Below are positions 30,407 through 64,000 of a stretch of DNA of 64,000 bases, in pieces. Made by a program: the position numbers and the translations under genes. Each line of letters opens with the position of its first letter. The stretch's first letter is position 1. The DNA is taken from positions 261,945 to 325,944 of the forward strand of contig JAGTXO010000043.1 of NCBI GenBank assembly GCA_019448385.1, in the 5' to 3' direction. This DNA comes from Diacronema lutheri. Its lineage: Eukaryota; Haptophyta; Pavlovophyceae; Pavlovales; Pavlovaceae. The notes beneath the pieces were generated by a model that saw nothing but the letters and a program-made list of their open reading frames with translations, did not search any database and was not told the origin of the DNA.

Positions 30407-30865
30407 AGCAGAAATGGCGCAGTAGTTGAAAAGAGAGTCAAAGAGTGCTTCTTTCAGTTAGTATAGATGGTCAAGCCAAATCCGATCAGGGGCACGATCG
30501 CGCCCCGAGTGCAGCGCGGGCCGTTCGGAAGGACGTCCTTGTGAGGGAGCTCTTCGCGTTTGGCGAGCGGGGGAGCACGACGCGCAGCGTTGCTGCGGCG
30601 GCGTGCGGGCGGCGAGCAGCGGTCGGGCTGCTCGCGACGAGGCCGGAGCAGACGGCGCCGTGGCCGCCGGCGCAGGTGACGCGCGCCGACGAGCCGTAGC
30701 GAGCGTCCGTGATCCGCACGGCGGTTGGAGCGGGCCGGCTGGTGCGGCGCGCTCGGCCACGGGTGGCGGCGTGCACGGTCGTGCCGCGCGCGGCACGCGT
30801 CGCCAGCCGCGCGCGACCTGGGCAGAGCCCGCAAAGCGTCGACCGCTGCGCGGCTCGGCCGTGCG
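30407..30865. other. Convergent intergenic region; possible element end
   Basis: 459 bases between the kinase stop and the stop of the Fanzor gene. On the minus strand it is directly downstream of the Fanzor coding region, where a guide (omega) RNA would be expected by analogy with TnpB/Fanzor loci. I see GC-rich, potentially structured sequence but no defined RNA. Its left part (30427-30451) is one copy of a direct repeat found again at 61551-61574. Confidence 0.4.
30427..30451 (+). repeat. Left copy of island-flanking direct repeat
   Basis: 25 bases beginning TGAAAAGAGAGTCAAAG. The copy at 61551-61574 is identical except for one missing A. GCGCA-type sequence precedes both copies. The two bracket the 31-kb accessory island in the same orientation. 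Confidence 0.7.
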
Positions 30866-33605
30866 TCAACGCCGGCCGCGCTTCGGCCCGCGCGCGCTGC
30901 CGCCGCCGGCACTGGCGCTGGCACTGGCGCTGGCAGCTCCGCGGGCGGGGGTGCGGGCGCGAGAGCCGCCGCCGCCACCGCCGCCGCGCCCGCCGCCGTC
31001 GTCGCCACCGCCGTCGCCGCCGCCGCCTCCCCCGCCGTCATCGTCGTCGTCGCCGCCGCCGCCTCCGTCGCCGTCGCCGTCGCCGTCGCCCTCGCCGCCG
31101 CCGCCGTCGCCGCTGCCATCGTCGTCGTCGTCGTCGTCGCCCTCGTCGTCGCCCTCGTCGTCGCCGTCGCACTCGTCGTCGCAGTCGTCGCCCTCGCCGT
31201 GCACCATGCGCTCCTCACGCTCCCACACCTCGCCGCGCGCCCACCAGGCGAGCACGAGGGCAAAGCGCTCAGGCGTCGACGTGGTGTCGCGCCCGGCCGC
31301 GTGCGCCGCCATGTCGTGCACGTCGTAGAAGATGTTGCGCGCGGCGTTGTAGTCGCGGTGCACGGGCTTCTTGCCGCCGTTGCACGCCGGGCAGATGACG
31401 AGCGCGTGCACCGTGCGCGTGCCGCCCTTTGCCACGGGCAGGCGCGGGTTCTGCGCGAGCTCCGCGCCGCAGCGCTGCAGCCTGCCGCCCTTGGCGAGCC
31501 GCGGCATCGAGCAGTGCATCGACGTGTACGGCTCGGGCACGAAGACGGCCGCGACGCCGCGCCGCCGCAGCTCGCGCAGCAGCCCCACCTGGAAGGCGGG
31601 CGGCGCGCCCTTGGGCTGCGCGCCCTTGTGGTCGCGCAGCCACTTGCCCACGCACACGAGCAGCCGGTCGCGCGTCACGCCGTCGACACAGTGCGCCGCG
31701 ATGAGCGCCTCGGCGACGCGCGCCGCGTTGGACCGCCCGCCGCTGTCGCGCCGCCAGCGCTCCTTCCGGCGCGCCGGCGCGTCGTACACGTGCTCGGCGG
31801 CGCGCTCGCGCACCCGCGCGCTCTCGCGGTGGAAGGCGATGTATTTGCCCGCGTCGAGCACCTTGGCGCTGTGCGCCTCGCCAAGCCGCGCCTCGTCCGC
31901 CTCCACGCTGAACTCCTCGCCGCGCCCGTCGGTGCGCACGCGCCGCCGCGCCGCGTTGGTCTTGGCCGTCTCGCGCGCAAAGCCCGCGGCGCGCGCGCGC
32001 GCGCGCTGCGTGAACTGCCGCCAGACGGCCGCCCGCCCGACGTGCGCAGAGTAGGTGGTGATGTTGCCCATGTTCGGGTCGGCCGCGACGACGACCGCCG
32101 CCTCGACGTCGATCGCCCGCCGCAGCTCGGAGCCGAGCGCGACGGCGATGCGCCCGTCCGGCCGGCGCCAGCGGTGCAGGACGCCCGAGCCGCCGGCCGG
32201 CGCCTGCGCCTTCGGCACGAGGACGGTCCCGACGGCGTGCACGGCGACGCCATCTGTCACCACCGACTTGACGGGCTGCCGGCCCGGGAGCGGCACGCGC
32301 GGCAGCGGCGCGAGGCCAACCCACGAGCGCCGCGCGTGCCACGGCAGATCGGCCGGCGGCCGCTCGCGCCCGGCGTAGTCGAAGACGCGGTTGGAGATGT
32401 CGAAGCGCGTCGCAAAGACCGCGTACCTGACGCGCACGTCCGACATCGGCGGGGTGTTGCCGTTTGTGCCTGTCCACTTGATCGGCTCGCCATCGTGGTC
32501 GCGCAGGTCCAGCGCCTTGAGCCGCGCGCGCAGCTCCTTGCGCTCGTCATCCGAAAGCGTCACCCAGATGGCGCTCGCGGCGAGGCGCACGTTGCGCGGC
32601 ACCTGCGCGCAGCGCGCGGCGCGCGAGCGCGCGGGCGCGTGACCAACCTGGCCGCGGGGCGGCGCGCACGGCGGCGGCGCGCGCGCTTGGGCGCTCGGCG
32701 GCGGCAGCGGCAGCCACGCCTCGCGCGCACATTGTGCGTGCGCAGCGGCGCCACATTGTACCGCGGCGGCCGTCCGGTCAGCTGCGTGTGGATGTGCGCG
32801 AGCCGGCAGAGCAGCGCCTGCCCCTCGGCCACGTGCTGCAGGGTGCGGATCTGCACGAGGAAGTAGCGCGTCGTGTGCCGGTCGTAGTTCCACCTTTTCG
32901 TGGGCGTGCACTTGTAGTCGATCTTGTGGAGGACCATGTCGGGCAGGTGGCGGTCGAGCGCGGCGGGGCAGCCGACGCGCGCGCCCTCCACGTCGCCGCG
33001 CAGCAGCCGCTCGCACAGCTCGCGCACGCGCGCGTTTCGCTGCATCTCGGGCAGCGCGACGAGCGCCTCGTCGCGCTCGACTGCCGCGCGGACGACGTCG
33101 CGGAGCAGCCCGTTCACGACGCGCGATGGATGCATCAGGCACGCGGTGGACACCTGCGTCGCCTCCGCCTCGAGGATCTCCGTGAGGCCCACCGCGCAGA
33201 CGGGCTGGACGCCCTCGGCCATCTCGCCGACGGCGCGCGCCGTCGCCGCCTTGGTCTGCGCGGCGGCTTGCTCGGCGGGCTTGCCTCGGGGCGCTGCACC
33301 GTACGTGCTCTCGTCCTTGTGCCAGCCGATGGCCGAGAAGATCGCACGGACGGTTCCCTTGTCCATCGTGGTCGACGTGTGCACGCTGGTCGACGGGCCG
33401 CCCGACGCCGCGCCGACGGCCTGCGCGCTCGCCACCGCAGCCTCGTCGCGCACCACCTTGTTGATGACGCGGTACGCCTGTGTCGTGAGCCTGTGCACGG
33501 CCGCCGCGATGCGCCGCAGCTCCTTCCGCGCACCGGGCTGCGCCGTCACCGCCTGCGGCCCCGCGTTGAGCGTCGAGCGCTTGACCACGAAGCCCGGGAG
33601 CACGC
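30866..33605 (-). other. Fanzor (eukaryotic TnpB-like) nuclease region
   Basis: The last roughly 870 residues of the giant gene. The start is near FVVKRSTLNAG, with the helical N-terminal region usual in Fanzors, then YNVAPLRTHN|VPRNVRLAASAIWVTL spanning intron 2. RuvC-I is VVVAADPNMGN (Asp codon about 32078-32080), RuvC-II VPEPYTSMHC (Glu about 31532-31534) and RuvC-III VHRDYNAARNI (Asp about 31352-31354). Between RuvC-II and -III lie HC, RCG and CPAC, a zinc-ribbon pattern. Fanzors are RNA-guided DNA nucleases descended from IS200/IS605 TnpB. All three acidic residues are present, so activity is plausible. Confidence 0.85.
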
Positions 33606-36600
33606 TGACGCGCGTGCGCGCCGTCGCGCCGCCGGCGGCGCGCGCGCTCGGCGCAGCGGGCTCGTCCACGCGCGCGCGCTCGACGCCGCGCGCGCGGGGA
33701 ACGCTCGGCGCGCGCGCGCCCGCGGCGTCGCGCGCGCTCGCGGCGGCACCCGCCGCGGCGCGCTTGCCCGCGGCGCCCGACTCGCCGTGCGCGCGAAGCG
33801 GCGCCGACGCCAATGCCGACGCCGCGCCCGCGCCGCCGCTGCCGCTGCCCGATACGCCCGCGCGCCGCTTCTGCTCGTCGCGCGTCTTGCGGAACTGGGC
33901 GACGAGGTCGCTGCTCACGTTGGCCTCAGGCTCCCACGTGTCGGCGCTCTCGTCGTAGCCCCGCCACCTGATCCGGAACTGGAACGTCACCTTCTTGCCC
34001 GCCTTGCGGCGCTCGTCGACGACCGCCTCGACCTCGTACGTGCGCGCCTCCTCGTCGACGCTCGCGCCCGCCGCGCTCGCGCCCGTGTCCGGCCACCCAG
34101 CGACCGTGCCGCCCAGCCTCTCGGCGGCCGCGCGCAGCTGCCGCTCGCGCTGGGCGGCCGCGGCGCCTCGCGCGACCAGCGCGGGCAGCATGCCCGCGCC
34201 GCCCGCGAGGCCGTGCGCGCCGACGCTGGCGGTCATCAGCGCGTCGAGGCACGCGAACGTTGCGAGCGCACGCGCGCCATCGTCGCCGCCGCGCGGCTGC
34301 GAGCGCACGACGGGCGATGGCCGCGGCTCCCCCTCGGCCGCGAGCAGCGGCCAGATCGCACTGGCCAGCGCGACGGCATGCGCGCCGACCGCGACGGCCA
34401 CGTCCGCGTCGAGCGGCGCAAAGTCGTAGCGCACGAGCGCGGCCGGGCGCGAGTCGTCCGTCGGCCGGTCGGCGACGAGCAGCCCGACCGGGCGCGGCGG
34501 CTCGCCGGACGGCGCGGCGACGGGCACGCAGAGGAGCACGACGAGCAGGCGCGGCGTGCCGCCGAGCAGCGCGCGCGCGGCATCCGCCCCGTCGGCTCCG
34601 CCGCGCGCGGCCGCGGCGAGCAGCTCGGCCGCGCGCGTCGGGCCCAGCGCCGTGCGCGCGTCCTTGCGCGCGCGTGCGCGGGCCGTGTACGCGGCGCAGG
34701 CGTCGTCGAGCACCGCCGCGCTGGGCGCGGTGCCAGTCGTCGCCCACGCGCGCAGCGCGTCGCGCACCCGCGTGACGATCGCCTGGTCGACCGCCGCCTC
34801 GCCGGCAGCGTGCGCCGGCGCGCACGCCGGCGGTGCGGCGGCAGGCGCGAGCGCGGGCGCGCCGTCGGCGCCGTCAACGCCGACGGCGCCGTCGGCGCGC
34901 CGCCACGCGAGCTTCGCCTCGATCTGCTGCCGGACGGCGTGGCAGTGCCGGTCGATGCCGCGCGCGTCGTCGAGCGCGGCCAGCGCGTCCTCAGCGGCGG
35001 GACGGCCGCTCGCGTCCGCGACGGCCTGCAGGCAGAGCAGCGCGGCCGCACGCGCGTTGCACGCGCTCTGCAGCTCGGGCGCGAGCGCGAGCTCGAGCTC
35101 GAGCGGCGACGCGCCTCGCGCCGCGGCGATCGCGTCCATCAGCACGTCCAACCGCTGCACCAGCGCCCTGTGCGCGTCGCGCGGCGCGCCCGTCGACGGC
35201 GCGCGCGAGCGCGTCGCCAGGAGCCCGAGCGCGCGCGCCGGCGCGCCCGCCGGCGTGTGCAGCACGAGCAGCGCCGCGCCCGCCAAGCTCGCGTTGCGCG
35301 TGACGAGCGCGAAGATGCGCGTCGCCTCGTGCGCGCCCACCGACGCCCAGATCGCAGCGCGATCGGCGTCCGTCTGCGCGTCGCACAGGTCGCGCACGTC
35401 GTCCGGCGCGAGCAGCGCGCCGCCGCCGGCGGAGCGCGCGACGATCGCCCGCGCCTCCGCCACGAAGACGGCCTGCGGCAGGTCGGCGTGGCGCGCGTCG
35501 ACGATGGCGCGCGTCGCGTGCACGCCGAGCTCCACGCCGCGGTAGAAGGCGCGCGCGTTGGCCGCGCGCGCGTGCGCCGGCCGTCCGTCCGCGTTGCGCC
35601 TCGCGCGCGCCTGCTTGCTCGTGCGCGCGAGGCCGTCGCGTGGCGGTGGCGGCAGCGTGGCGAGGAAGCGCGCGGCGGGCGGCGGCGCGCGCACGCCGCG
35701 CTGCCGCCGTGCGATGGCCGCGAGCCGCCGGCCCGCCGCGCTGCCGCCCGCGCCGACGTGCTGCCGGCGGCCGAGCGCCGCCGGTGGCGGCGGCGGCGGC
35801 GGCGCGGCGGCGGGCGGCGGCGCGACGGCGGGCGGCGGCGCGGCGGCGGGCGGCGGCGCGGCGGTGGGCGGCGGCGCGGCGGCGGGCGGCAGCGGCGGCG
35901 GCGCGGCGGCGACGGCAGCACCAGTCGGCTTGTCCGCCCACGCACCCGAGACGCTGTCCCAGGCCTTGCCCGGTGGCGCGCGCCCACGCGGCCGCGGGTG
36001 GCGGGCTCGAGCGGCGGGGGGCGGGCGGCCGGCGCGCCAGTCGAAGACAGGTGCAACCGTGGCGGCAGGCGCCGAGTGCAGCGCGTCGGTCACAGAGCGC
36101 GTGGTGCGCGCGGCGACCGTGGCGCGCATGGCGGGCGGGCGGTGAGCAGCGCCCGCCGGCGCGCCGGCGGGCGCGGCAGCCGGCGCGCCGGCGGGCGCGG
36201 CCGCCTCGAGCCCGGCGGAGGCGCCGCGCTTGCGCTTGCGCGTGCCGCCGCGCGTGCGCCTGCGCGCGCGCCCGCCGCGCGCCCGTGCGGCCTGCGCGTC
36301 GCCAGCCGCGTCGCCGGCCGCGTCGCCGCGCCGCACGTAGACGATCGCGAACGCCTCCTCGCCGGTCCCGTCGACGCCGCCGCGCGCGCGGCGTAGGACC
36401 GACCGCCACTGCAGCCGCCGCGCGCGGCCGGGCTCGCACGCAAACCAGCGCCCACCGCGCCTGACGACGGCCACAAAGTCGTCGTCGCGCCGCCCGCGCC
36501 GGCGCGTGCGCAGCAGCACGCACTGCACGTCGAGCCAGCCCTCGTGCCAGTCGGCCGTGCTGGGGGCGACGCGAATCGACTGCGGGAGCTCGACGCCAAA

Positions 36601-39600
36601 GCCGGCGAGGCGCACGATGTGCGCGACGATGACGCTCGAAATGGCGGGGGCGCTCGACGGGTCGTCCGCTGCAGCGAGCACCGCCTCGCCCCAGTGCTCA
36701 CGCGTGACGCAATCCGCGTCCTCGACGTGCACGTGCGCCACGCTCGCGCCGAGCTGGTGCAGCAACGCGCAGATGTCGGCGTCGACCGTCCTCTCCTCCT
36801 CGGCCGCCTCGGCCGTGCCGCGGGCGGCGGCGTCGCCCGCCGGCTGCCCGAGGTACGCGATCGCCCGCTCGACGGCCGCGCCCTCCGCACGCGCTGCGCT
36901 GTCGATCGCCGCATTGCCGACGGGCGCGCGCAGCGCCGCGATCGCGTCTTGCAACGCCGTCGCGTCGCCCGTCGCCGCCGCCGCCGTCACCGCCGCCGCG
37001 CTCGCGGTGCCGTGCGCGACGGCGTGCAGCGCGGCGGCGCGCGCGGCGGGGATGCGCCCGTCCAGCGCGAGCACGAGCGGCGGCCCGGCCGGCGTCTGCT
37101 GCCGCCGGTGCCGCCGGCTCGCAGCCGGGTGGTCGGCGCGCGCGCGCTCGAGCCGCGCGCGCCGCTCGACGACGCGCGCCCAGAAGGCCTGCACCCTCGG
37201 CTGCGCGAATGCAAGCCAGCCGGCGCCGCGCGTCACGACGTGCACGACGATCCGGTCCTCGTGCCTGAGGTACTGCACGTAGAGCGCTTTGCTCACGCCG
37301 AGGACGTGCATGCCGAGCTGCAGCTGATCGCGGTGCGGCTGCGGCGGCCCGTCCTCGTGCGCCGTGGCGCCCGCCTTGGTGAGCGTCTTCACCTCGACGA
37401 GGACCTGCTCGTTGTTTTCGGGGAGGATGGCGAGCCCGTCCGGCGAGAAGGCGAACGGCGCGCTCTTGTCGTGCGGGTCCGCACGCACCATCGGCAGGTT
37501 GCACACGACGGTGATGCCGTACGCGGCCGCCAGCTTGCGCAGCGCGACGGCCTCGCCGAGGATGCCCGCGGTCGTCGCCTTGGTCCGCACCTCGCGCCGC
37601 CGCCGGTGCACGTACTCGTCGGTGAGCGTCTCGTGCGCGACGCCGGCGTTGTCGTTCACGACGTCGCCAACCTTGCTGCCCGTGACCTCCTCCCATCGCT
37701 CGTCGTGCCAGCGCGGGCTGCGCTGCGCGGGCGCGCCCGCGCCGACGGCGTCGAGCACGCGGCGCAGCGCTGTGCCGTCGGGCGCAGCAGGCACGCGCGC
37801 GCGGTCCTGGGCCTCGCGAGCGTCGAGGACGCAGCCCGTAGTGGAATGTTGGGGTAGGTCGAGCTTGCTCGCCTCGCCGTAGCGGCTCTCCAGCTGGCGC
37901 GGTGCGTCGGCAGGGCCGCCGTCCGTGCGCGCACCCGACGCGCCCGCCAGTGCACGGGGCGCAGCGTCCGAGGCGCCCGCCGCGCCCGCGCCGCCGCCAA
38001 TCGCGCCAGCGCACGCGCGCGCCGCGACCTGCGGACGGCCAGCCGCAGGGACCTCGTCCGCTCGGCCGGCCGCTGCGTCGGCCGTCCGCTTGGCCACCTC
38101 GCGCACGTCTCCGAGCGCGAGCGTGGCTGGCGCCGTCCAGCTCCCGTTGCGTTTGTCCCAAAATTTGAGCAGCCCGCCAAGGAAGGGCGTGCCCGTCGGG
38201 CGGTCCTCGGGCACCTCCGCCAGGATCGCGTCGACGCGCAGCGCGGCCGCCACATCGCAGAACGCGCGCGCGGCGCGCGCCATCCGCTCGGCGCGCGCGC
38301 CGCCGTCGTCCGCCGCGCGGCGGATGGCGTGGCTCACGTGCGCGACGCGGAGCGAGACGACGGCGTGCGCCGGCGCGTCGGCGCCCGTGCCGAGCGTGTG
38401 CCGCCGGATGGCCAGCTGCCCATCGCCCATGCGCGGCGGCAGCGACGCGCACGCCGCGACGGTCGTCGTGCCGGCCGCGCTGTCGCACAGCCAGCTCGCC
38501 TCGCCGCCGCCCGCAAACTCAAAGGTCGCGAAGCCCTCGCGGCCGAAAAGCGCGACGAAGTGGTCGAGCACCGCCTTGTTGATCGCGCGCGCCGCCGGCC
38601 GCGTCGATGCGCCGCGGGCAGCGCCACCCGCCGCGCCGCGCGCATCGCTGCACGTCGCAGGGCAGGTGCAGCCGGACGCGCGCACGCCGTCCGACCGCGT
38701 CCGCGGCAGCTCGAGCTCGCGCACCTTGGGGCAGAACCAGAGCGGGTTGGACGCCTCGAGGCACAGCACGACGAGCCGCCCGTCCGTGCCGGCCAGCGCG
38801 CGCGCGTCGCGCAGCAGCTCGACGGCGAGCTCGGACGTCGCCGCGTGCACCGCCGGCTCGCCCGTCGCGCGGTCGGGCGGGAAGAGGCCGCCGCCGACGA
38901 GCGGGCTGGGGCAGCGGCCGAGCATTACGAGCAGCGGCGGCGGCGGCGTCTGCGGCGCCTGCTGCCCGACCGCAGCCGCCGTCAGCCCGGCCAGGTCGGA
39001 GCTCGTGCGGAGGGCCTTGAGCGCGACGCGCGAGCCGGTGCCCGCCTGCTCGGAAAACGTGGCGAGCATGGCGCACGTGCTCGCCCTCGCGCCGCACTGC
39101 CAGCTGACGCGCGCGAGGAGGCCTTCCAGCGTGTCGTTTTCGCGCGGCCGCGTGACCGCGTCGAGCGCCGCCGGGCCGAGCTGGAGGCTGCCGGGCGTGA
39201 CGCACAGCACCGCCTCGTGGTAGGCGCGCAGCAGCTCCCTCGGCAGCTGCTCGGCGGGCGTCGCCGCCTGCTCGCCCACCCACCGTACACCGTGGCCGCC
39301 GTCGCCCGCGCCCGCGAGCCGGACCGCCGGCCCGCCCGTGATCGCCGAGGTCGGTGGCGTGCCGAGCGCGTCGACGAGCGCGCGCACGGGCGCGACACGC
39401 CTGCGCGCAGCGTCCGCGCCGACGGCGAGCGCGGCGATCTGAGCGCCCTCCCATGCGCGCTCCCTCGCGTCGTCCCGCGCGGCCGCCGGCGCGGCGCCCG
39501 GCCGCGCGCCGGGCGGCACCGCGCACGCCGCCGCGACGACCTCCGCGCGCGCGCCGGCGGCGTCGGGCGCGTGCAGCTGCGCGAGCGCGCCAAAGAGCGC

Positions 39601-41419
39601 GGCGGCCGAGCGGTAGCGGCCGTGCGCCGCGACGAGCGCGTAGAGCACGCGCAGCGCGGCCACGCCCGCCTGGTCGGGCGCGTCGCCAGCGATGCGCCCG
39701 ACCTCCCACGTGCGCGTGGGCGGCGGGCTGCCGTCGGCCGGGTCCGGACGCAGCGCCCACGCGCGCTCGACGATCGCGTTGAACACGTCGCGCGCGGCGC
39801 CCTCGTCAAACTCGGCGGCGCCCGCCGCGTGCGCGCACCACCCGTGCACGCGCGACGTGGGCGCATCCACGGCGCGCTGCACGACGAGCACCGCCGGCCG
39901 GTCGACGCAGCCGAGGCTCACCGCCGCGTGCTTGCCCTCGAGCAGCGCCGCCGCCGCAGCCTCGACCAAGGCGTCACCAGGCGCGTCGCCGACGACGACG
40001 GCACAGCCGTCGCCGTACTCGGCCTGCATCGCGGCGACGCACGACGCGACAAAGTCGCCGCCCGCGGCCGCCGCGTGTCGCGCCGCCAGCATCCGGCGCG
40101 CGATGGCAAGCCAGACGTACTCGGCCGGCGCGCGCGCGGCGCGCGCGCGAGGCGCGCCGGCCGCGCCGCGTGCGCCAGCGCGTGCGCCTCCAGCGGCCGC
40201 AACGGCCGAGGCGGCTGGAGCGGCGGTGAGCGTGCGCCGCGCGCGCTTCGCCGGCCGCGCGATGGGCGATGCACCCGCCGTCGCACCGCCCGCAGCAGCC
40301 GGTGCGGCCGCCACAGCGCCCGCCGCGACGCCACTCGTCACGACGCCCGTGGCGGGCGGCGCGGCGTCGGACGCGGCCGCCTCGACGGGCGTCGCGCAAC
40401 TACCGCCAGCGGTCGCGGACGCGCCCGGCGACGCGTCGGCGAGGAGGTGGCGCAGCACGCCGCGCGCGAGCGCGACTCGCACGGCGAGCGTCAGCGCGCG
40501 CAGGCGGTCGGAAGGCGAGGCGTCGCGCTCGGCGTCGGCGGACGTGGCGGCAGCAGGCGGGGCGGCGGGCGGCGCGGCGGCGGACTGGGCGGCCGCCGGC
40601 GCAACCTCGTCGGCCTTGGCCAGCCAGACGAGCCCGGCGACTGCGAGCACGACGCTGTACGCGCCGACATCGTCACCCGCAACGCGCGCCAGCCGGGCGT
40701 GGGCGTCGGCCTCGGACACGGCGACGCGGAAGAGCACGTCGTCGCGGGCAGCTTGCTCGGCAAACTGACGCAGCTGCTTGGCCATCGTCACGCCGGCGAC
40801 GCACGCCTCGCCCGCCTCTGCCTCGACCTGCTCGTCCTGGCCGATGGCGGACGCGCCGGCCTCGGCGCCACCGTCGAGTGTCCGGCGGCGCTCGAGGGCA
40901 AAGCCACGCACACAGACGCTCTGGAGGCCGCCGAGCGCGCCCGCCTTCTCGTGCAGCGCGCACGACAGCTCGACCACCGAGTCCACGCGCGTCGCGGCGG
41001 CGCCCCCCCGCTCGCCGCGCGTGGGCGCGCGCACGACGAACACCGTGAATTGCGCGCGCTTCGCCGCGCGCGCCGACGCGCACGCGTGCTTCAGGAGCCG
41101 GCAAAGCGCGGGCCTTTGCGCCGCTGCGCCCCGCGTGCACAGCAGCAGTTGGCCGCGCTCGTCGCCCAGCTCCTGCTCGATGGCGGCCTCGAGCGCGTCG
41201 TCCGTCAAATCGCCGTGCTCCGTCGAGGCGAGCGCGCGCGCAGCCGCGAGCGCCAGCTCGCCTGCGCCCGCGCGCCGCCGGCGGCGCGCACCGGCGGGCG
41301 CGTGCGGCGCCGACGCGTGTGACGACGCCGCCGCGTCCGCGCGCGCACACGCGGCGCGCAACGCCTCACGCGCCGAGGCGGCCGCGCGCGCCCTGGGCGC
41401 GAGCCTCAAGAACGTGCGC

Positions 41420-41503
<84 letters not shown>

Positions 41504-44500
41504 TCGCCCGCGTCGCCGGCCGGCGGCGGCGGTGGCGGCGGTGACGGCGCGGCCACGGCGGCGGCAGCAGCGGCGGCGGCGGCGGTGGCGGCGGCGGCGG
41601 CGCCCAGCGCGGGCGGCGGCGGCGTGGCGGCGGCGGTGGCGGCGGCGGTGACGCCAGCGGCGGCCTTGGCGACGCGCGTCTGCGGCGGCGCTTCGGCGCG
41701 ATCGGGGCTGCCCCCGCCACGCACCGCGCTCGTGCCCGCGCAGACGCCGCCCGGCGCACGATCGCTGGCCGCGCCGGTCAGCGCGACGCGGAGGCGCTCG
41801 CCGACAGCGTACATGTCCGCCACGCTGAACGTGCGCGGCGCGGACGAGCAGCCCGCCGCGGCGAGCGCGTCGTTGAGCGCGCCCACTATCGCGAGGCCGC
41901 ACGTCGCGCCACGCTGCGCCGCCTCGTCGAGCAGCCGCGCGCGGCGCACGCGCGAAATGTCGAGACCCGCCGCGTGCAGCGTGGCAGTTATCGCCGTGGC
42001 GAGCACGAGCGCCCGCCTGCAGGGCGACGCGAGCGTGTCGACGAGCACCGCGTCGTAGCGACGCTCGCCCGCGCGCGCGACGCGCACAAGGCGCAACGCG
42101 GTGAAATGGCCGGAGGCGAGCTGCGCGCCGTCGTCACCGCCCGCGCCGCCGCGCTCGTCCGACGGGCTCCACACGCCGATGACAGCCTGCGTCGTCGCCT
42201 CGCTGCGCAGGCGGTGCAGCAGCGCGGCGCGCTCGGCGCCGTCCTGGAACACCGCGGGTTGCGCGGCGAGCGGCACGTGGCAGACATGCCCGCCGCCGGC
42301 CTGCCCGTGCACGCGTAGCACGACCTCGCAGCACGCGTCGACGGTTGAGGCGAGCATGTCGCCGCTGGCGATGCGCTCCACCTCTGCCTGCGGGAGGCCG
42401 GCGCTCGCGGCGGCGGAGGCCAGCCGGCGCGCAGCCGCGTCGCCCGCCCACGCAAGCAGCGCCGAGTTGGCGGGTTGGAGGGGAAGCTCAAGGGCGGCTG
42501 GTTCGGTGGCGGTAGCCTCGTTGGCAACGGGCACGTTGGCGGTGCGCACGTTGGCGGCGGGCGCGGCGGCGATGGCTGGTGGGGCGGAGGACACGCCCGC
42601 GGCGGCAGGCGCGGACGCGACAGCGGCAGCGGCTAGCGGGGCGGGGAAAACGCCGTCGGTGGCTGGCGCGGAGGCGAGTGCAGGAGCAACTAGTGGGGCG
42701 GGAAAATCGGCGGCAGGCGCGAAGGCGGATGCAGCAGCGGCTAGTGCGGCGGGGAAAACACCGTCGGCGGCAGGCGCGAAGGCGGATGCAGGAGCGCCCA
42801 GCGGGGCGCAGAAAACACCGTCGGCGGCAGGCGCGAAGGCGACAGCAGCAGTGGCCAGTGGAGCGGAGGCGCAGGGCCACGCGCGCGCCAGCCGTGCAAG
42901 CCCAAGCCGCGCGCGAGCGACGCACGCGCCGATGGCCGAGGCGGCGGCGCAGGCCACGACGTGGCCTGGCACCGGTGTGGCCAGCCGCTCGCGGGTGTGC
43001 ACGTCGAGCCGCGCCCCACGCCAAGAGCGGCGGCGCGCTGAACGGAGGCGCGCGACCCCGATCGATCCGCCCGCGCACGCGCGCGCCGGCTCAGTGTGGC
43101 CAACGCGCGCCGCTATGCAAGGCGCGCGCGCGATAACGGCGGCTGTCGGCCGTGGCGTGCGCGTGGCGGCGCCGCGGCGACGGGCGCGGCACACGAGCCG
43201 CTCGGGCGCGCCGCCGCCGCGCGGCACGATGTCGAGCAGCACGGTCACGCCGCGCGCGCGCGCGACCGCCGTGCACGCGAGCCGCACGGGCAGCGGCGGC
43301 CCGTCCGGGCGCGCGAGCGCCGCCACCTCGGCGTCGGTGAGGCTGTGCAGCTCGCGGCGCGCGCGCGCGAACGCGGCGATGTCCGCGCGCAGCTCCGCGT
43401 CCGTGCCGAGCGCGGCACGCGCGTGCACGGGGAGCGACGCGCGCAGCGCGTGGAGCACGCCGCCGCGCGCGCCGCGCGGCGCCGGCGCGCGCTCGCGCTC
43501 AGCGCGCGCGGCGCGCGTGAGCTCGCGCACCGCGCGCGCGAGATTGCGCCGCGCGGCCGCGACGGGAGGGCTAGGTGCGCGCGCGCGCCGGTTGTAGCGC
43601 GGCCGCGCCGAGTCGAGGGGCGGCGGACGCGGTGCGTACGCCGCGGCGCGGCCCGCGCGCCAAAAGGCCGGCGGCGGGCGCAGCTCCGTCGCGTCGACCG
43701 CGGCCGCGAGCGCGCCGAGCGCGGCGTCGCTGTCGCCCGCCGCGTCGGCCGCGTCGACGAGCACGAAGAGCGCGCCGAGCGCGCGCGACGCGGCCGCCTG
43801 CGCGGCGGTGGGGCGGGCGCAGGCAGCGACGCATGCGGCCGCCATGCCGCGCGCCGCGGCGAACGCCGGTGACGTGACGGCCGCGCCGATGGCAACGGCG
43901 GCGGCGGCGACGGTCGAGGCGGCAGCGCCGGCGACGGAGGTGGCAGCGGCGGCGGCGCTTGCCATCGCGCGGCGCGCGAGACGCGAGGCGCCACCGACCG
44001 CCGCCGCCGCAGCGCGCGCTGCGCGCGCGCCGGTGGCGCGCATCGTCGCCGCGCCAGGCGCCGCCGCGCCGACGCCGCCGGCGCCCGCGCCGTCGCCGCT
44101 CTCGGCCGTGCAGGGCTCCGATGGCGAACCCGGCGTGCGCTGGCGCGTGATGCGCGCGCCGAGGCGCGCGCTCCGCGCCGCGCGGCCGGCGACGTCGGGG
44201 AAGCGCCGTGCGCGCGCCGCGCGCAGGCCACGCGCGCGCGGCGGCGCACCGACAGGCGCCGAGCGCCGCGGCGCGCACGCCGGCGCGTCGCTGTCGGGTT
44301 GCGCAGCGCGCGCGCGGGAACTCGGCGCGGCGTGTGCGGGCGGCGGGCGCGCGCCCGCGCGGCGCAGAGGCGCGAGGCGCCGGCCGCAGACGAGGCGTGT
44401 GCGCAACCAGGACGGCGAGGGCCGCAGGGCGCCGTCGACGTCGCGCATCGGCGGGCCGCGAGCCCGCCGCGCAGCCGTGCGGCGCGCGCGAGGCGCTCGG

Positions 44501-47500
44501 CGGCGCGCGCGCCGCACGGCGCGCGCGGCGGCGCGCACGCCAGCGACGGCTGCGGCCACGCCGCGCGCCAACACGGCCGCGGCGTGCGCCATCGCACCGA
44601 GCACGGCGCGTGGCGCGCCGAGCAAGCGCAGCAAGCGCGACGCCGTCGCGCGCGCCGGCGCACCGTGTGCAGGGGCCTCGCCAGCGCCAGCACCGACGCC
44701 GCCATCGCCGCAGCCGCAGGTGGCGTCGCCGCCGCCGCAGGCGTCGCGACGGACGCCGCCGCCGCCGAAACAATCGCCGCACACGTCGCCGCCGACGTTG
44801 CCACCCCAGCCGCCGTTGCGTGCGCAGGTGGCTGCGGCGCGTGCGTGCGGGAGGCGTGCCGTGCGGCGCGCATCACACGGGCTGCGCGACGCGAGCGACG
44901 CCGCCGGGGTCCCCGCTGCGCCAGGCGCGCCGTGCGCGCCAGCCTCGCCGGCCTCGCCGGCGCGCGGTCGCGCGCTCGCCTCGACGTGGCCGCCTCCGCC
45001 GCCATCGCCGCCGTCGAACCGGGCGGCGGAGGGCTGCCGCTCGAACCGCTCGTCGGCGTCGGCCGCCACCGCCGCCTCGCGCTCCGCCGCCGCGGCGGCC
45101 GCACGGCGCGCGTGGCGGAGCGCGCGGCCGCCGTCCGCTGCGCGGCGTGGCGGCGCGGGCGCCGCCTTCGGCGCGCGCGGCCCCTCGGCGCGCTCGCGGA
45201 GCACGGCGAGCGGCGTGCCCGTGGCGACGCTCGTGCAGACGCGCCGCAAGGCGGCGCTTACGCACGCGTGGACGACGCGCGCCGTCCGCTTGTCGGCGGC
45301 GCGCGCGGCGCGGCGCGCGGCCTTGGCGGCGGCCTTTTTGGCGCGCCTCCGCTCCGCCTGCTCCGACAGCGCGCGCGCCTGGCGCTCGGCTGCGAGCGCG
45401 TCCTCGGGCGAAACGGTCGGCCTCGGCGGCCGCGCGCGCGCGCTGCGACGCTGCGCGCTGCGGCGGTCGGACGGCGGCTGCCGCGGCGGCGAGGACGGCG
45501 GGCGCGAGCTCGGCGTGGGCGACCAATCGCCGCTGACGGTTGCGAGCGGCGCAAACGGGTTGTCGTCCCCGCGCCCCGCGGCGTGCGACAGTGCACGCGG
45601 CGTCGGGCGCCGGCCGACCGCTGGCGGGCCCCACTCGGACGGCGGCTCCGAGGGCGAGCGCGCCGTCGGCGCCGCGCGTTGCGCGGCCGGCGGCGCCTCC
45701 CGGTCCAGCGCCGCCTGCTCTCTCGCCGCGGCCTGCTCGTCACCCTCCGGCACGCCACGCGGCGCGAGCACCGCGGTGGCGCAGCGCGTCGCGTTGAGCA
45801 ACGCCGCCTCCATCTGCCGCACGCTGGCCTTGGCGCACGCCACACCCTGTCTCGCCCGGCGCAGCGCCTCGTGCGCGCGGCGCACTTCCGCGTCGGCATC
45901 TTCGCGCATGCCAAAGTGCGCCTGTTGCAGCCGCAGGTCCGCAGGGCGCCCCTGCGCGCGAGGGGCACGGGCGCGGCGGCGCGCAGGTGACGGAGCTGGC
46001 GCGCCGTTCTGCGCTGCGCGCACGCCAATCGACGGGCGCGCGCGCGGCGGGGCGCGCGCGCGCGCGCGCGCGCGCGCTGCCTACCCAGCCGCCGGCCGGC
46101 TCGCGCGAGCGCGCCAGCTGCTCCGCCGCCTCGGCGTCGAGCACGCGCTGCTGCGCCTCCTCCTCGCCCAGTGCAGCGAGGTGCAGCCGGCGGGCTGCCT
46201 TGCGGCAGTTGCCCTCCGCCTTGCCCACGGCCTTGCGCGCCGCGTCGACGGGGTCGTCGTTGGCTCTGGCGCGCCTGCGCTTGCCCTTGTCGGCGGGCGG
46301 CGGCTCGGCGCGCTGCAGCGTGCCGAGCGCGTCGTCGGCTCCGCGCGCGGCCGCCCGCGGGCGGCGGGCCCCAAAAAGCGCACCGGTCGCCGTGCGCGCC
46401 GCGCAAGCAACGACCAGCGCTGACATGCCGGCGAAGACCGCACCGCCCAGCGCCACGGTTGCCACGATGCGCAGCGTCCCGTGCGCAAGCTGCGCTGCCT
46501 CCGCCGCTTTGGCGGCCTCGCGCGCGCGCGCATCAGCGGCTCTCATCTCGTGCAGCAGCCCGGCCGCGCCGCTCGCGCCGTCGCGGCCGCGCGCGAGCTC
46601 GCACAGCACCGCCGCCGCGCGCCGCGTGGGCTCGCGCGCGAGCAGCTGCGCGCCGCCGTCGGGGCGCAGCTTCTCAACGAACTCGACAAACGTCGCGTCG
46701 CGCCAGAGGGACATGCGGAAGGCCCTGTGCACCGCCCCCTCCTGCTCGCGCATCCGCCGTGCCGCCCGCCTGCCGTCGCGCGCGTGCGCGTGCGCGGCCG
46801 CGTCGACTCCCGCGACGCCGCGCTGCGCGTCGCGCGCGGCCGACGACGGCGCCGCCGCGCTGCCCGCCAAGGGCGCCGCAGCGGCGACGCGCGCGTGCGG
46901 AGCGACGGGATCGCCGGCGGCCGGCGGCTCGGCGCGCTGCGGCGTGCCGTTTGCTCCGCGCGCGGCCGTCCCGGGGGAGGTGGCCGCGATGGCGCCGCCA
47001 GCCGCGCCGCGCGCCAGCCACGCGCATAGGCTGCCGACGAGCTCGCCGAGACCCCCGACGGTCGCCGCGGCGGCGAGTGCGCCGGGCTTGCCGGCCGACA
47101 GCGGCTCGCGAGCGTCGTCGTCGCAGCCGCCGGCACCCGTCTTGGCGAGTGCGTCGCGCTCGCCCTCGACGCCCGCCACGACCGCCGCCCCTCCGTCGTC
47201 CGCCGCGCCGGCCGCGCGCGCGGCCGGGCGCAGAGGAGGCGTGCCGGTGCAGCCGTCGCCGCTCGTCTTCGCCGTTTCCTCCACTTTGGTCACTTCGTCG
47301 CCACCTGCGCCATCTCCGACGCCGGGGCCCTTGGTCACGCTTGCCGCCATGCGCGCCGTGCCCGCCGGCCAGCCCGCCGACTGCTCGAGCGCGGCGGCGA
47401 GCGGCGCGACGCGCGTCGACTCGGGCGCGCTCTCGTCATCGGGCTCGAGCGCGTTGTGCAGGCGCGCGAGCGCGCGCTCGACGGCCGCGGCGCCACTGCC

Positions 47501-49759
47501 GGGGGCGCGGCTCGCCGCGCGCACCGCGCGCCGCCAGGCCGGCGCGAACATGAGCGCCGGCTCGAGCGCCGCGAGCGCGCGCGCCTCGCGCGCGTCGCTC
47601 GCGCCGAGGCGCGGCGGCACGCGCGCGGCTCCGCGCGGCGCGGTGCCTCGGAAGCGTGGGCTCAGCGTGTAGGCGAGGTGCTGCGGCACGCCGCGCGCCT
47701 CCGCGCGCGCGCGTCCGTCCTCGACCTCGCGCCGCGCCTTCGCGATCGCCGGCGTGGCGCGCGCGAGCCAGTCGGGGTCGGCGGGCAGGTGGATCACGAC
47801 GAGAATCGGCGCCCAGTCCAGCCGCGGGTTCTTGTGACGGTCGGGCACGACCCACACGAGCAGCACCGTGCCCTCCGCGCCGCACGCCGCCTCGTAGATC
47901 CTGGGCTGCGAGCGCCAATCGGGCCTGACGCGCAGCGCCCGCGCGTGGTCGATGGCGGCGGCGCGGTCGCCATTGAAGTGAACCGTCGTCACCTCGCCGA
48001 TGACGGACCGGCCGGACCGCCAGCAGAACACCGCGTCCGCCGACCCGCCGGCGATGGCCGCGAGCGATTCGGGCGCGGCGAGCCGCGGCAAGCCCTCGAA
48101 GGCGGCAAAGTCCTCGTGCGCATTGTACACGCCGCCCCAGCCGTCGTGCGCGTACGCGCGCGCGGCCGCTCGTACCGCGCGCGGCTGGTTCTCCACGCCC
48201 GACGTCATGTGCCATGTCGTCCCCGCGAAGCCGGGCTCGCCCAGCTCGGCCCGCACGACGGTACCGTACCCCGCGCCCTGCGTCGGGGCGGCGAGGTGGT
48301 GCATGCCCGCGCCGGTCACGCCCTCCGTGCGCTGCCGCGTGACGATCGTGCCCGTCGCGTGCGCGAAAAGCGTGTCGACCACGGCGGGCGCGCGCCCGCT
48401 GTTCGCCCGTGGCCGCGCCCTGCCCGCTTTTAGCTGCTCGGGGTCCTTGGCGTCGTACACGCGCGCGTCCGCGTCGCCCTCATCAGGCGCAGTGTAGACG
48501 CAGCGGCGTTCGAGCGGCGCCGAGCCACCGCCGTCCGCCGCCGCCGGCGAGGTTGGCGCCGCGCCCGCCGCCACCGCGCTCGTCGCCGCCGTGCCCGTCG
48601 CCACCGCCGCAGCCGCCGCGCCCGCGGGGTCGTCGTCCCCGTCCTCCGCGCCCTCCCCGTCGTCAGCGGTGGTGGCGTCGCCATCGTCCCCGTCGCCCTC
48701 GCCCCCGCCGAGGCTGCTGAATGGTCGGGGCCCCCACGCCGAGGCGGCGCGCCGCTGCGGCGCACGCGGCGGTGGCGCTCGCGACGGCGGCCTTGGCGCC
48801 GCCGCGCCGCGCGGCCTGGCCGCCGTCGACAGCGCGCGGCCTGCAGCGCCCGTGAGCGCGTCGAGCGCGGCCGTGCGTGCGATGCGGTCGTCGGGCGCGC
48901 GCAGCGCCGCCTCGACGGCCTGCAGCAGCCCGTCGGGCGCGGATCCGCCGACACTGGCATCGCACGCCTCGGCGAGCCGCGCGGCCTCGGCGAGCCGCGC
49001 GGCCTCGCGGGTGAACGGGCCGAAGCGCCTGGCGCGGTCGCCGAGCAGAGCGCCGATGGCGGCGCGGAGCGTGCGCGCGCGGGTCTCCTCGTACGCGGCC
49101 GTCGTGAGGCGCGCGAGGCGCGCGTCCAAAGCCTTCTTGATGTCGACAAGGACACTCGCGCGGCGGCCGTAGAGCGTCGATGCGCTCGCCACGACCTCGG
49201 CCGCGACTGTTGCCGCGGCGAAGCAACACGCGGCCCCACTCTGCGGGGGCGCCTTGAAGGCATCGATGGGCGGCGCTGTTCTGCCGATGCGCTGCGCAAG
49301 CTTCTTGATGAGCACGCCGGCCGCCGTGGCGTACGCCGATTCGCCGTTGCCCAAGGTGCGCGAATCGGCGAGCAGGGCGAGCGCGGCGCCGGGCGGCGCG
49401 CCGCGCTGCGCGGGCGGCGCGAGGAGCAGGTACGCCGCCGTCCAGTGCACGAGGCCGCTGGACGCGCGGAGGCAGAGCGGTAGCACGACCACGAGCACCT
49501 GCCCAAACCGGTCCGCATCCGCGCATGCTTTGCGCAGGTTGCGCAGCGCCACCTTGAGCGCATGCTGCGAGCACCCCGTGTCGCCCACCCTAACCCTGCT
49601 CGTGCCGAAATCCGCGTAACGCAGCAGGGCGATGAGGCAAGTGGATGGGACCACGTGGGGGTGGGTATCTCCCGGCGACAGAATGGTGCTGAGGGCCAGC
49701 GAGAAACTGTCCGAGCCGCCCCGCCCGCCGGGCAAAGCGTCCTTCACGGAGTCCTCCAT
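30866..49759 (-). CDS. Giant multidomain Fanzor nuclease gene
   Basis: Exons 46085-49759, 32731-45951 and 30866-32602, joined in phase 0 by introns of 133 (GTAGGC donor) and 128 bases (GTGCGC donor), give about 6,210 residues. Order from the N-terminus: a Ulp1/C48-like peptidase; an unrecognised domain near 47750-48500; one transmembrane segment (about 46420-46490); a coiled coil across intron 1; 2 kb of Arg/Ala-rich sequence; a second C48-like peptidase; degenerate C48-like modules; a YqaJ exonuclease; more degenerate modules; a chromodomain; and a C-terminal Fanzor nuclease with an acidic Asp/Gly tail ending GPKRGRR. Single-frame continuity over 13.2 kb with catalytic motifs throughout argues for real coding. 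It could still be several genes with unseen introns, or a self-processed polyprotein. Low-complexity blocks include a 27-unit GCG run (41420-41504). Confidence 0.75.
33862..34050 (-). other. Chromodomain in the giant Fanzor gene
   Basis: Reads YEVEAVVDERR, then FQFRIRWRGYDESADTWEPE and NVSSDLVAQF. The aromatic-cage positions (Y near the start, W in RWRGY, W in DTWEP) match a methyl-lysine-reading chromodomain. It lies about 85 residues upstream of the Fanzor region in the same frame. Confidence 0.88.
37150..37720 (-). other. YqaJ-type exonuclease domain in the giant gene
   Basis: Begins SPRWHDERWEEVTGSK and continues with GILGEAVALRKLAAAYG, FSPDGLAIL (Asp about 37438-37440) and VLVEVKTLT (Glu 37393-37395, Lys 37387-37389), then QLQLGMHVLGV. 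This is the full PD-(D/E)XK set of YqaJ/lambda-exonuclease-like recombination nucleases, which are common in phages and large DNA viruses. Confidence 0.85.
41420..41504 (-). repeat. GCG trinucleotide run (poly-Ala)
   Basis: About 27 consecutive GCG/CGG units coding poly-Ala in the giant gene, right after the second peptidase module and a Pro-rich linker. Such a run is prone to length change. Confidence 0.9.
41850..42470 (-). other. Ulp1/C48-like cysteine peptidase module (second copy)
   Basis: The proposed triad is His in SGHFTALRLV (about 42106-42108), Asp in VLVDTLASP and Cys in QRGATCGLAIV, with the oxyanion Gln five residues before the Cys and the Asp 46 residues before it. This spacing is close to Ulp1-family SUMO peptidases. 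The upstream segment ASGDMLASTVDACCEVVL resembles the WL-x-D entry motif. Confidence 0.65.
42590..42870 (-). repeat. Degenerate 51-54 bp coding repeats in the giant gene
   Basis: About six imperfect copies of a 17-18 residue unit (core SAFAPAADGVFPAPL) in a linker ahead of the second peptidase module. Confidence 0.8.
49150..49620 (-). other. Ulp1/C48-like cysteine peptidase module (N-terminal copy)
   Basis: Candidate His in LVHWTAAYLL, Asp in LLADSRTLG, Gln in PPQSGAACC and Cys immediately after. Asp-Cys is 46 residues and Gln-Cys is 5, identical to the copy at 41850-42470 despite little other identity. Confidence 0.55.
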
Positions 49760-51140
49760 CTGCAGACTGTGGGCACGTCAGTGTCCGGATGGCGGCCCGG
49801 ATGATACTTGGGAGAATTTACATGATGCCCTGGAGAATGCCCCGCTCTCCCACAACCAGGACCCGCCAGCGCGCCGAGCCTACTCGTTTGCCCGCGCCGC
49901 CTCTCTCTGCGCGCCCGAGCGCGGCCTCCGAGCGCGGCCAACGTCCTCCGGGGGCGTGCATCGTGGCTGCTCGGAGGGGCTGCGACGCGGCGAAAGCTCG
50001 CTGCGCGGCCGCAACGTGAGCGCGCGCGCGCGGCCGCGCGCCGGCCTGCGCTGCTCTGCACGGCCGCGCGCCGGCCTGCGCAGCCTCGTCGCGCAGCGTG
50101 AGCGCGAGCGCGCGCGAGGTGAGCTCGGCGGATGGGTGCGCGGCGGCGTTGGCGGCGGGTGCGGCGGCAGGCTGGGCGGCGGGTTTGGACGGAGAGTGTC
50201 GGGGAAGAACGGGGCGCATCCTGGCTGGGAGTTGGACGGCGCCCACCACGCGCTGGCGGATCCTGGTTGCCACCACCACCCCCCCCCCCCCCCCCCGGAG
50301 ACGAGGACCAGGGGCATGGCCGACTCGCTGCGCCGCACAGCGCGCGGCGCGCGGCATGCTGCGCGACCTCAAGCACATCCAGCCGCGCTCCGCCCACGCA
50401 ACGCGCGCAATGCCGCGTTGCACTGCAGGTGTGCACGTGCGGCTCTCACGCGCACTGTGTTGCACGAACGGCATCACGCCACCGAGCTGCGTCCGGACCA
50501 CGCGCCGCGCGCAGGCGACCACACAGGGGCGCGCCGCGCCGCGCGTGCGCGCCCTCGCAACCGTTGCAGCACGCTCTGCCTTGCACTGCGCCGAGCCGCC
50601 GCGCGCTGTGCGCGTGCATGCAGGGCGCACGCGTGCGACGAAGCGCGCGCGCGGCGAGGCGCGCGGGCGGCTCGCTGCGCGGGCGGCAACGCGCCCAGCT
50701 GCGCCCAGGCCAGGCGCGCGCCCGCGAGTGCCACCGGGACGCACTGCCCCCGCCGGGGTCGCCGCGCGCTCTGTGTGTGCGCTCGCGCGCTGCGAGCGCG
50801 GCGGAACGTTCGTGCATGGCGCGAAGAGCGCGGCACCCGAAGACGGCTGCCCCGAGCCCGCGCCGGGTGGCAGCGAGCGGCGGCACCTCCTCGGCGAGCC
50901 CGCCCCGCGCCTTCCCCTCCACGTGGCGTTTTGAGGCAGACGGACACGCGCCCACACTGCGACTGGGCACGCTGCTCGAGGCAGACACGCACCCAACGCG
51001 CGCGCACCACGCGCCCGCGTCGGCGGGCCGGTGTGAACGAGCGAGAGCTCGGTGTCGCCAACGGGGGCACGGGCGCGACTTCGGTCCGCCTCTCGACGGA
51101 CGCAGGCGACGCTGCCGGGAACTTCCCCGACGCCTGCACA
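49760..51140. other. Upstream region of the giant gene
   Basis: About 1.4 kb holding the 5' side of the giant gene. Frames are open on both strands for long distances but are Arg/Ala-rich and match nothing. A 19-C tract lies at 50279-50297. Promoter elements are not evident. Confidence 0.4.
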
Positions 51141-51664
51141 TCCAGGGCTTCGAGGTACAGAGCTGGGCAACAGTGCCGCTCGTCACCGATGAGGCGGCCA
51201 AGCTCGCTATCCTTGCTGCCCTCGGCTCCACCAAACAGCCGGGCGACCCAACGGTTCGTGATCGCCTGGCCGCCAGGTGCGAACCGCGCCCGTGCAAGCG
51301 CTTCACCCGCATTCTCCGCCCCGCTGCGGACGTCCGCCTGCCGGCCGCGAACACGGCCGGTGCGCGTTGCCGCCTGGCCCAACACGAAAACCCGCCCGCC
51401 CCCGAGGCCGCAGGTCCTACCTGCCCAAGCGCAGCCCAACGGCACGCAGACAGCCCGCCTTGGCAACCGACTCGTGCGCGAGCGCTCCGCCCTCCACAAG
51501 AGCCTGCCCCACGCCACCGCCGACGCGGAGCCAGCGCAGCCGACGCCCCTCCGCGACGCTCGCGCCGCAAGGCGCAAGGGCCCCGGCGAGACGGCGTCAA
51601 CCAAGCCCGCCGCTGGCACAGCGCCGGCACCCGGAGCCCACCCCAAGCCCCCGCGCACGCCTCG

Positions 51665-51710
<46 letters not shown>

Positions 51711-52137
51711 ATCGGCGGACCGATTGCGTTTTGGTGCGCCAGGCTCAATGCGCCATCGCAGTGGCGGGCCCGCAGACGCAGACGCTGACATGCCCAACGC
51801 TGGGCACTGAGGCCGCAGGCCGGCCCTCCTGGACCTGGCGGGCGAGCTGCCCGCGCAGCGGCCACGCGAGCCTCGCACTGACCGTGGCGGTCGCTGCCAC
51901 CGTGATAGCTGCGGGTGCGGCGGCCTTGGCCCCAACCCCATCATCCGTCTTCATCCCCGCCCTGCTCGCGCTCGCGGCCTACGTCGGCAATCCCTGCACC
52001 GGGATCCGCCCCGCGAAGTCCACACAAGACTTATCCGTGCTGCACGCCAGCCGCGCGCGCCGACGCGCGCCGCTCCCACACGCTCACCTCCGTTTCCGCG
52101 GGCGGCCCAACGCCCCCCCCCCCCCCCCCCCCCCCCC

Positions 52138-52170
<33 letters not shown>

Positions 52171-52510
52171 CAGGCGGCCATCGAGCCGCATTAGCACACC
52201 CGCCCGGGGCCTCCCGCCGCACCCGCAGCGGCTCGGCGCCTTGAATCCTCCCGTCCCCCGGGGTGAGGCCTTCAACCCGGGCCCAGCGCGCTCCGACTGC
52301 CTCACGCGCGCCAGCGCCAACCTCGGCGGCATGGTAGACCCCGAGCGAAAAGCCGCACTTCTCGCCGTCCTCGTCAGGCGCAAGTACGTTATCCTGCTCC
52401 TACTGCCGACGCGGCTCCCGCGCGCGCGGACTACTACGCCGGGCAGATCGCCGCAGACGCACGTGAGTGCACACGTGCGGACAAGGCGCACACGCTCGAC
52501 GTCCAGTTAG
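51140..52510 (+). mobile_element. Possible LINE 5' region with start of an endonuclease domain
   Basis: A plus-strand frame contains protein-like pieces: TDEAAKLAILAALGSTKQPG near 51190, a hydrophobic stretch (51880-51990), then GEAFNPGPARSDCLTRASAN followed by LGGMVDPERKAALLAVL at about 52260-52375. The NPGP phrase followed by NxGG...K..LL..L resembles the entry to the APE-type endonuclease of non-LTR retrotransposons. The frame is lost soon after, where another frame reads ADYYAGQIAADARE. C tracts of 45 (51665-51709), 25 and 30 (52113-52168) interrupt it. No reverse transcriptase is present, so if real it is a fragment. Confidence 0.3.
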
Positions 52511-52721
52511 CGCACGTGCACGTGCGCGCCACTGGTCACATTTGAGCGTCCGTGCTCGCCCACAGCGTCGCCATCCACAAGATGCGCGCTGGAGCCATCC
52601 AAGCAGGGCTCTGCCTGCTCGGCTTCCGCAAGGCAATTTGGGCCGCGGACAGCGGACAGCGGACGGCGTGCGCGTGCGAGGTGCGAAAGGAGGAAGAAGG
52701 TAGGGAGAGTTGTGTGTGTGT

Positions 52722-52757
<36 letters not shown>

Positions 52758-58557: not shown

Positions 58558-58639
58558 GGCGCGCACGACGTCGCCCAGCCAGAGCAGCCCGGGGCGGGGC
58601 GAGTCCGGCTGCGCGGAGGTCCGGCTCGAGCGGGCGGGC

Positions 58640-60772: not shown

Positions 60773-60805
<33 letters not shown>

Positions 60806-63388: not shown

Positions 63389-64000
<612 letters not shown>

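Follow-up and report, generated by a model that had tools for sequence, protein, structure and literature searches.

Within the 64,000-nucleotide window analysed here (G000:C39:261945-325944 of the Diacronema lutheri assembly, its right edge being the contig end), positions 30461-61524 probably represent one copy of a giant transposon that is related to Helitrons, was amplified recently and encodes a polyprotein with a chromodomain-Fanzor part. We put the probability of this reading, including the movement that we infer, at about 0.68. Three coding blocks lie on the same strand, namely a helicase gene with an N-terminal domain, a ubiquitin-specific protease (USP)-like peptidase and a frame of 6,210 residues. 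An earlier interpretation made from the letters of the window (hereafter the sequence-only reading) had proposed a giant gene of new architecture; the long frame stands, but it is the main gene of a mobile element of about 200 copies and not a single-copy algal gene. Hence the mobile element, rather than an odd giant gene, is the finding.

Borders, copies and insertion sites of the element

The element spans 31,064 bp (30461..61524), with the Fanzor end on the left and the helicase end on the right, and both borders are exact. Similarity among the fetched copies stops exactly at 30461, the sequence outside being unrelated, and the right border lies at 61524/61525 in copies on C82, C71, C98 and C9. 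The left terminus GTATAGATGG (30461..30470, plus strand) and the right terminus CTATATACGG (61515..61524, minus strand, read inward) match as inverted repeats at 7 of 10 bases, a level expected in about 1% of random 10-mers at this GC, and a strict stem scan returned palindromic stems of 9 bp on the right and only 6 bp on the left.

Across the assembly (43,492,796 bases in 103 contigs), a 32-base pattern from the Fanzor end occurs at 216 sites and a 39-base pattern from the other end at 173 (at most one mismatch), while internal patterns allowing up to two mismatches occur at 215 (YqaJ), 154 (exon 1) and 200 (helicase) sites; reversed-pattern controls gave 0 sites. A DNA search with the last frame recovered at least 40 near-identical copies. 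When 100 listed Fanzor ends of the 216 were matched to listed other ends on the same contigs, 36 pairs resulted, with lengths of 30.96-31.08 kb (17 pairs), 29.1-29.2 kb (5), 26.0-26.5 kb (4), 21.4-21.6 kb (9) and 12.7 kb (1); the remaining 64 have no listed partner, the list of other ends being incomplete and some Fanzor ends lying at contig ends. One-ended truncation of the LINE or CRe type was considered and dropped, since the other end is nearly as common and the lengths fall into classes. A truncation gradient drawn from piece counts was likewise abandoned, the DNA search having scored a limited number of candidates.

Linkage within the element was counted at exact listed sites on contigs C1-C47. 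At the spacing and orientation of the window, YqaJ accompanies 55, the Fanzor end 54 and the helicase 53 of 80 exon-1 sites. The linked domain order that the sequence-only reading would have sought in other algae is kept within this genome, but elsewhere only short pieces came to light: among the matches listed, an ENA protein search returned one Fanzor piece of 570 aa (98% identical) and one helicase piece of 437 aa (100%), and nothing for 4,440 residues of the long frame.

Insertion sites were compared at 29 loci, 3 of which were dropped for flanks shorter than 200 bases. The remaining 26 left flanks comprise 25 distinct last-60-base sequences, and they are relatively AT-rich next to the element, where the final 20 bases have 52.5% GC; farther than 150 bases away the figure is 71.5%. 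No target-site duplication was found in any of the five copies tested with both flanks (0, 1, 0, 0 and 0 bases). The 30 fetched copies, the window's own included, are the best-scoring matches and so are biased towards intact copies; over about 4,940 bases, each of the other 29 differs from the window by 1-8 substitutions and a single gap, or two gaps in the case of L029.

The long reading frame and its Fanzor end

On the minus strand, three stop-to-stop frames (1345, 4506 and 1019 aa) each overlap the next and join into a frame of 6,210 residues that runs from an ATG at 49759 to a stop at 30866 with zero internal stops. Exon 1 (46085..49759; 1,225 aa), delimited by reading frame, GC-by-codon-position signal and intron border, is followed by a predicted intron of 133 nt (45952..46084). 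Exon 2 (32731..45951; 4,407 aa), defined by reading frame and coding signal, is separated by a second predicted intron of 128 nt (32603..32730), which would lie inside the Fanzor, from exon 3 (30866..32602; 578 aa and the stop), which holds the Fanzor RuvC/zinc-ribbon lobe and an acidic/Gly-rich tail. All five features lie on the minus strand, and both introns, as called from sequence, have GT..AG borders and phase 0.

Because 300 base shuffles of the same 13.5 kb gave a longest open run of 1,257 codons, the observed run of 4,506 lies far beyond chance. The plot of GC by codon position displays a minus-strand coding signal over about 30.9-49.5 kb, with the frame switching near both introns; the signal is weak in Ala/Pro-rich, low-complexity stretches near 35.7, 40.1, 41.3, 42.5 and 44 kb. 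The 6,210-residue frame is thus confirmed as a reading frame with coding signal along most of its length. In all 30 fetched copies the GT/AG borders of intron 2 and the RuvC and zinc motifs of the nuclease are intact, and 898 upstream codons within the locus are open. The continuous frame of about 6,200 residues with two short introns, and the placing of a Fanzor at its C terminus, were accordingly both well called by the sequence-only reading.

By motif and homology, the predicted nuclease appears to be of the Fanzor type. It follows the published order D-X(125-275)-[TS][TS]-X-X-[C4 zinc finger]-X(5-50)-RD (PMC3627910), with D5807, 184 residues to TS, four Cys and 8 residues to RD, and its Cas12f/TnpB zinc-ribbon domain (PF07282; 31331-31570, minus strand) scores 27.3 bits against a cut-off of 26.3. 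This family is matched at E 0.01 or better in two of the three Fanzor families of the genome. A profile of the three families matches SpuFz1 of Spizellomyces at E 5.8e-7 and Parasitella Fanzor 1 at E 0.004; the window protein alone found no solved Fanzor. The N-terminal part of the Fanzor (32731..33591, minus strand, in exon 2) has no domain match of its own and is placed provisionally by its position between the chromodomain and intron 2. Since intron 2 joins this part to the nuclease lobe, chromodomain and Fanzor would share one stop-free frame. Exon 3 comprises 578 codons in the window and 574 in 28 copies.

Between the Fanzor stop and the element end lies a non-coding stretch of 405 nt (30461..30865, minus strand) that is, by its position, a candidate guide-RNA (omega RNA) region. 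The fold signal is weak (z -1.1 for the whole stretch, z -2.2 for its last 180 nt), and an Rfam scan of the stretch gave no match.

Upstream of the Fanzor, the chromodomain (33886..34038, minus strand; Pfam E 6.7e-12, best solved chromodomain E 8.3e-9) passes its cut-off. The YqaJ/RecE-like exonuclease domain (37159..37734, minus strand) matches PHROG 434 at E 6.3e-15, and falls below the cut-offs of TIGR03033 (E 3.1e-5) and Pfam YqaJ (E 0.0057-0.03). An NCBIfam scan yielded a lambda-exonuclease family below its cut-off, a TnpB match that was weak and nothing else, and PHROGs, in six proteins scanned, only exonuclease and Dda-like helicase families. Two stretches read by eye contain residues in the order H-D-Q-C, which we take to be the Ulp1 peptidase pattern. 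One lies near the start of exon 1 (about 49447-49223, minus strand) and the other, a putative domain at 41851..42435 (minus strand), has H, D, Q and C invariant in the 3 copies aligned. The chromodomain and exonuclease named in the sequence-only reading are hence both borne out, the peptidase has its motifs but no Pfam match, and the membrane part comes down to one membrane-like segment at residues 1098-1120, for which hydropathy is the sole basis.

The C19 copy, the only one of the 21.6-kb class read inside, shares window positions 36999-42464 at 97% and then continues into unrelated sequence; its frame spans YqaJ and the second Ulp1-like domain in frame, behind a different N-terminal sequence. 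Relative to the window it has indels of 36, 4+2, 3 and 3 bases, and 33, 30 and 47 substitutions at the three codon positions. A second Fanzor family (L001-L008, 8 loci fetched) is 95-99% alike over about 2-2.4 kb and has an end close to CATATATAGGGCGCC, exact and identically placed in five of the eight loci. In the third family (C86, L053), the Fanzor closes an open frame of 1,412 aa. This genome thus has long frames ahead of a Fanzor more than once, with differing N-terminal parts.

Helicase block and relation to known elements

Upstream of the long frame, on the same strand, lie a USP-like ubiquitin hydrolase coding stretch and a helicase gene. The former (53249..53953, minus strand) matches Pfam UCH at E 4.3e-8 and resembles USP12/46/7 weakly (E 0.045 at best). 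The latter (55500..58081, minus strand, bounds approximate) matches Pfam PIF1 and Pif1_2B; its motifs, at 57148-56055, are split over two frames, with an intron or frameshift near 56.93 kb. Its best solved match is Helraiser (PDB 7lcc), at E 4e-25 against 6e-6 for PIF1, so that the element contains a Helitron-type Pif1-class helicase. Unlike Helraiser, no HUH Rep part was found in the helicase gene, which begins instead with a 311-aa stretch without known relatives (best E 0.92). On account of this helicase and of the absence of target-site duplications, the element is Helitron-related, but it is not a Helitron by membership.

The TnpB elements of the IS200/IS605 and IS607 groups are small, carry the TnpA transposase and have an RNA-guided nuclease beside the element end, and IS605 makes no target duplication. 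The present element shares with them the nuclease beside an end, but neither the small size nor TnpA. The Chlamydomonas Helitron2 elements CRe-1,2,3 (PMC3627910) too have a Fanzor, full-length copies without target-site duplications and insertion at AT-rich sites, T-rich in their case, and the helicase of the present element is of the Helitron class. In contrast to CRe-1,2,3 as described there, no Rep domain was found here, the termini are GTATAGATGG and CTATATACGG, and many copies keep both ends where CRe-1,2,3 are truncated from one (PMC3627910). Likeness to Fanzor1 (PMC3627910, PMC10432273, PMC10711439) rests in the D-X(184)-TS-xx-C4-RD order, PF07282 and the SpuFz1 profile match, and Fanzor1s in eukaryotic transposons and viruses likewise lie near one end of the mobile element. 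The available portions of PMC10711439, however, put Fanzor1s at about 600 to 800 residues and note no such fusion, whereas here the Fanzor follows a chromodomain and closes a frame of 6,210 residues within an element of 31 kb.

No description of such an element was found in the accessible open-licence literature on Fanzor, Helitron, chromodomain, Ulp1, YqaJ and Pif1. The published assembly of strain NIVA-4/92 (103 contigs, 43.503 Mb, 73.25% GC, longest contig 3.042 Mb) comes with a repeat section in which LTRs and LINEs make up most of the annotated repeats, and the word 'transpos' does not occur in what is available of the paper's main text (PMC8379373). By contrast, a rough estimate from copy counts and lengths suggests that the family described here may make up about a tenth of the genome. 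It is an open question why Fanzors are retained in eukaryotic transposons, and this small, culturable alga, with its recent burst of some 200 closely similar copies, bears upon it. Since the Fanzor looks intact, is fused to a chromodomain and is linked to both an exonuclease and a helicase, direct tests of expression, guide RNA and movement are feasible.

Possible mechanism and competing explanations

Fanzor cutting at the sister chromosome has been proposed to help propagation (PMC10432273), and that idea is the basis of the mechanism that we propose. The long frame would be translated as a polyprotein, which might be processed by the Ulp1-like domains that it contains. The helicase, together with a nuclease that we did not recognise, would move a single-stranded or circular copy, a mode of movement that fits because target-site duplications are lacking. 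A guide RNA transcribed from the Fanzor end outwards into the flank could direct the chromodomain-linked Fanzor to the empty sister or allelic site, the chromodomain holding the nuclease on marked chromatin; the break would be resected with the element's exonuclease and repaired from the element-bearing copy. The element would thereby be kept and copied, as proposed for TnpB. A bolder version, which we consider quite unlikely, would make this a new superfamily of giant transposons in which a self-cut polyprotein frees the chromo-Fanzor and the RecE-like exonuclease for chromatin-aimed, RNA-guided homing, while the helicase and a new nuclease domain make the moving strand.

A number of observations weigh against a Helitron-related transposon with a polyprotein. 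Neither Ulp1-like stretch matches Pfam, both calls resting on motifs read by eye, and a profile hidden Markov model of the second domain detected nothing else of the kind in the protein and did not pick up the first stretch, which leaves the idea of a repeated Ulp1 domain without support. AlphaFold models built from 3-row alignments were poor, with pLDDT values of 41 for the nuclease half of the Fanzor and 37 for the second Ulp1-like domain. The L029 copy has a frame-changed tail, its exon 3 being open for 708 codons. Of 99 Fanzor ends at exact listed sites on C1-C47, only 48 have YqaJ, so that about half lack a listed one. The termini conform neither to Helitron1 (5'-TC...CTRR-3') nor to Helitron2 (asymmetric terminal inverted repeats and hairpins). 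Similarity between copies may be inflated, in that short-read polishing can hide differences between them.

Selection gives a mixed account. In the comparison with the C19 copy, dN/dS is 0.47 in the Ulp1-like domain. For the start of exon 3 it is 0.52. These values point to constraint, and others run counter to it: the stretch behind the Ulp1-like domain has 0.79, the N half of the Fanzor 1.33 over 30 substitutions and two parts of the helicase gene, compared with the C1 copy, about 1.1 and 0.5, the second part containing 2 stops in C1. These latter values may be affected by misalignment at indels and an intron. Taken together, the evidence that the element's genes are under constraint is moderate rather than strong.

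Nor did the frames scanned contain a recognisable transposase, whether Rep, DDE or a serine or tyrosine recombinase. Helitron_like_N has one match genome-wide, on C63, and none in the element; an HxH regular expression for the HUH Rep domain, run over six frames, gave 8 sites, none convincing; and neither a tyrosine recombinase nor a DDE domain matched in Pfam searches of six frames of 49.7-61.5 kb and the three long frames, which distant forms could escape. These results lend themselves to a non-autonomous element moved in trans, perhaps from the C63 locus, with the Fanzor polyprotein as cargo. Such an arrangement, to which we give some, if limited, credence, would be compatible with the transposon itself. 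Yet the helicase stands at fixed spacing from the exon-1 module at 53 of the 80 listed sites, and a single Rep locus is very rare beside about 200 copies.

It is possible, if somewhat unlikely, that the element is real while 30.9-49.8 kb is divided among several genes, such as one for a protease/nuclease and another for a (chromo-)Fanzor with its own promoter inside exon 2, the open frame between them being a by-product of high GC. Stops are rare at 70-80% GC and antisense frames here reach 1,291 aa; Met codons occur at many places, the coding contrast falls in the low-complexity stretches located above, and the other N-terminal module of C19 meets the same C-terminal block at 42.46 kb. Since C19 carries that different module, the C-terminal block may once have been a gene of its own. 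Against such a division stand the 4,506 stop-free codons, well over the shuffle maximum, the preservation of the frame through indels and in the divergent C19 copy, and the in-phase joining of exon 3 to exon 2 by intron 2.

An integrated virus or virus-derived element would account for the large size, the YqaJ/RecE exonuclease and the peptidases, and Fanzors are known in large DNA viruses of algae and insects (PMC3627910). We nevertheless regard this as improbable: Pfam scans, which covered all six frames of 49.7-61.5 kb but only the three long ones of 30.9-49.8 kb, revealed no capsid, packaging ATPase or DNA polymerase, the PHROG matches were confined to exonuclease and helicase families, IMG/VR gave no close relative of the helicase or the Fanzor, and about 200 copies are dispersed. 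More improbable still is an assembly artefact, by which one or a few elements would have been copied into many contig ends and repeats. Contigs C1, C5, C6 and C12 do open precisely on the element end, a full copy exceeds the read N50 of 23.5 kb (PMC8379373), a point that also weighs against the transposon, and C45 repeats the right flank of the window; but the 25 distinct left flanks among 26 loci and the several length classes, each recurring, speak against an artefact.

Repeats, related loci and flanks

Further features accompany the transposon copy. Just upstream of the helicase gene lie nested inverted repeats (58639..59525; arms of 89-207 nt, 95-99%) that carry the motif CATCCTACACCCTACACCC, and the C1 copy has a differently arranged version. 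Two long poly-C tracts occur at 51660-52177, in a non-coding part of the element, and are shorter in both other copies compared. A diverged relative (L054:120-4996, about 74-95% identical to the window) lacks exon 1, so that its USP-like stretch leads straight into the second Ulp1-like domain.

The helicase that stands close to the second Fanzor family on C1 lies in an apparent adjoining copy of the 31-kb element family, with its own right end, and may be a chance neighbour. Of two other second-family loci inspected at the same distance, L050 holds rearranged right-end sequence of the 31-kb family and L051 does not.

The two host flanks of the window copy, at 30428-30451 and 61552-61574, hold a near-identical stretch (GAAAAGAGAGTCAA..GAGTGCTTC) that is not adjacent to the element end on either side. 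Window positions 61417-63721 recur at 99.7% identity in C45:1-2300, which may be the same chromosome end assembled twice. Finally, subtelomere-like arrays of degenerate TTAGGG/GGTGAG occupy the contig end (63350-64000 of the window).

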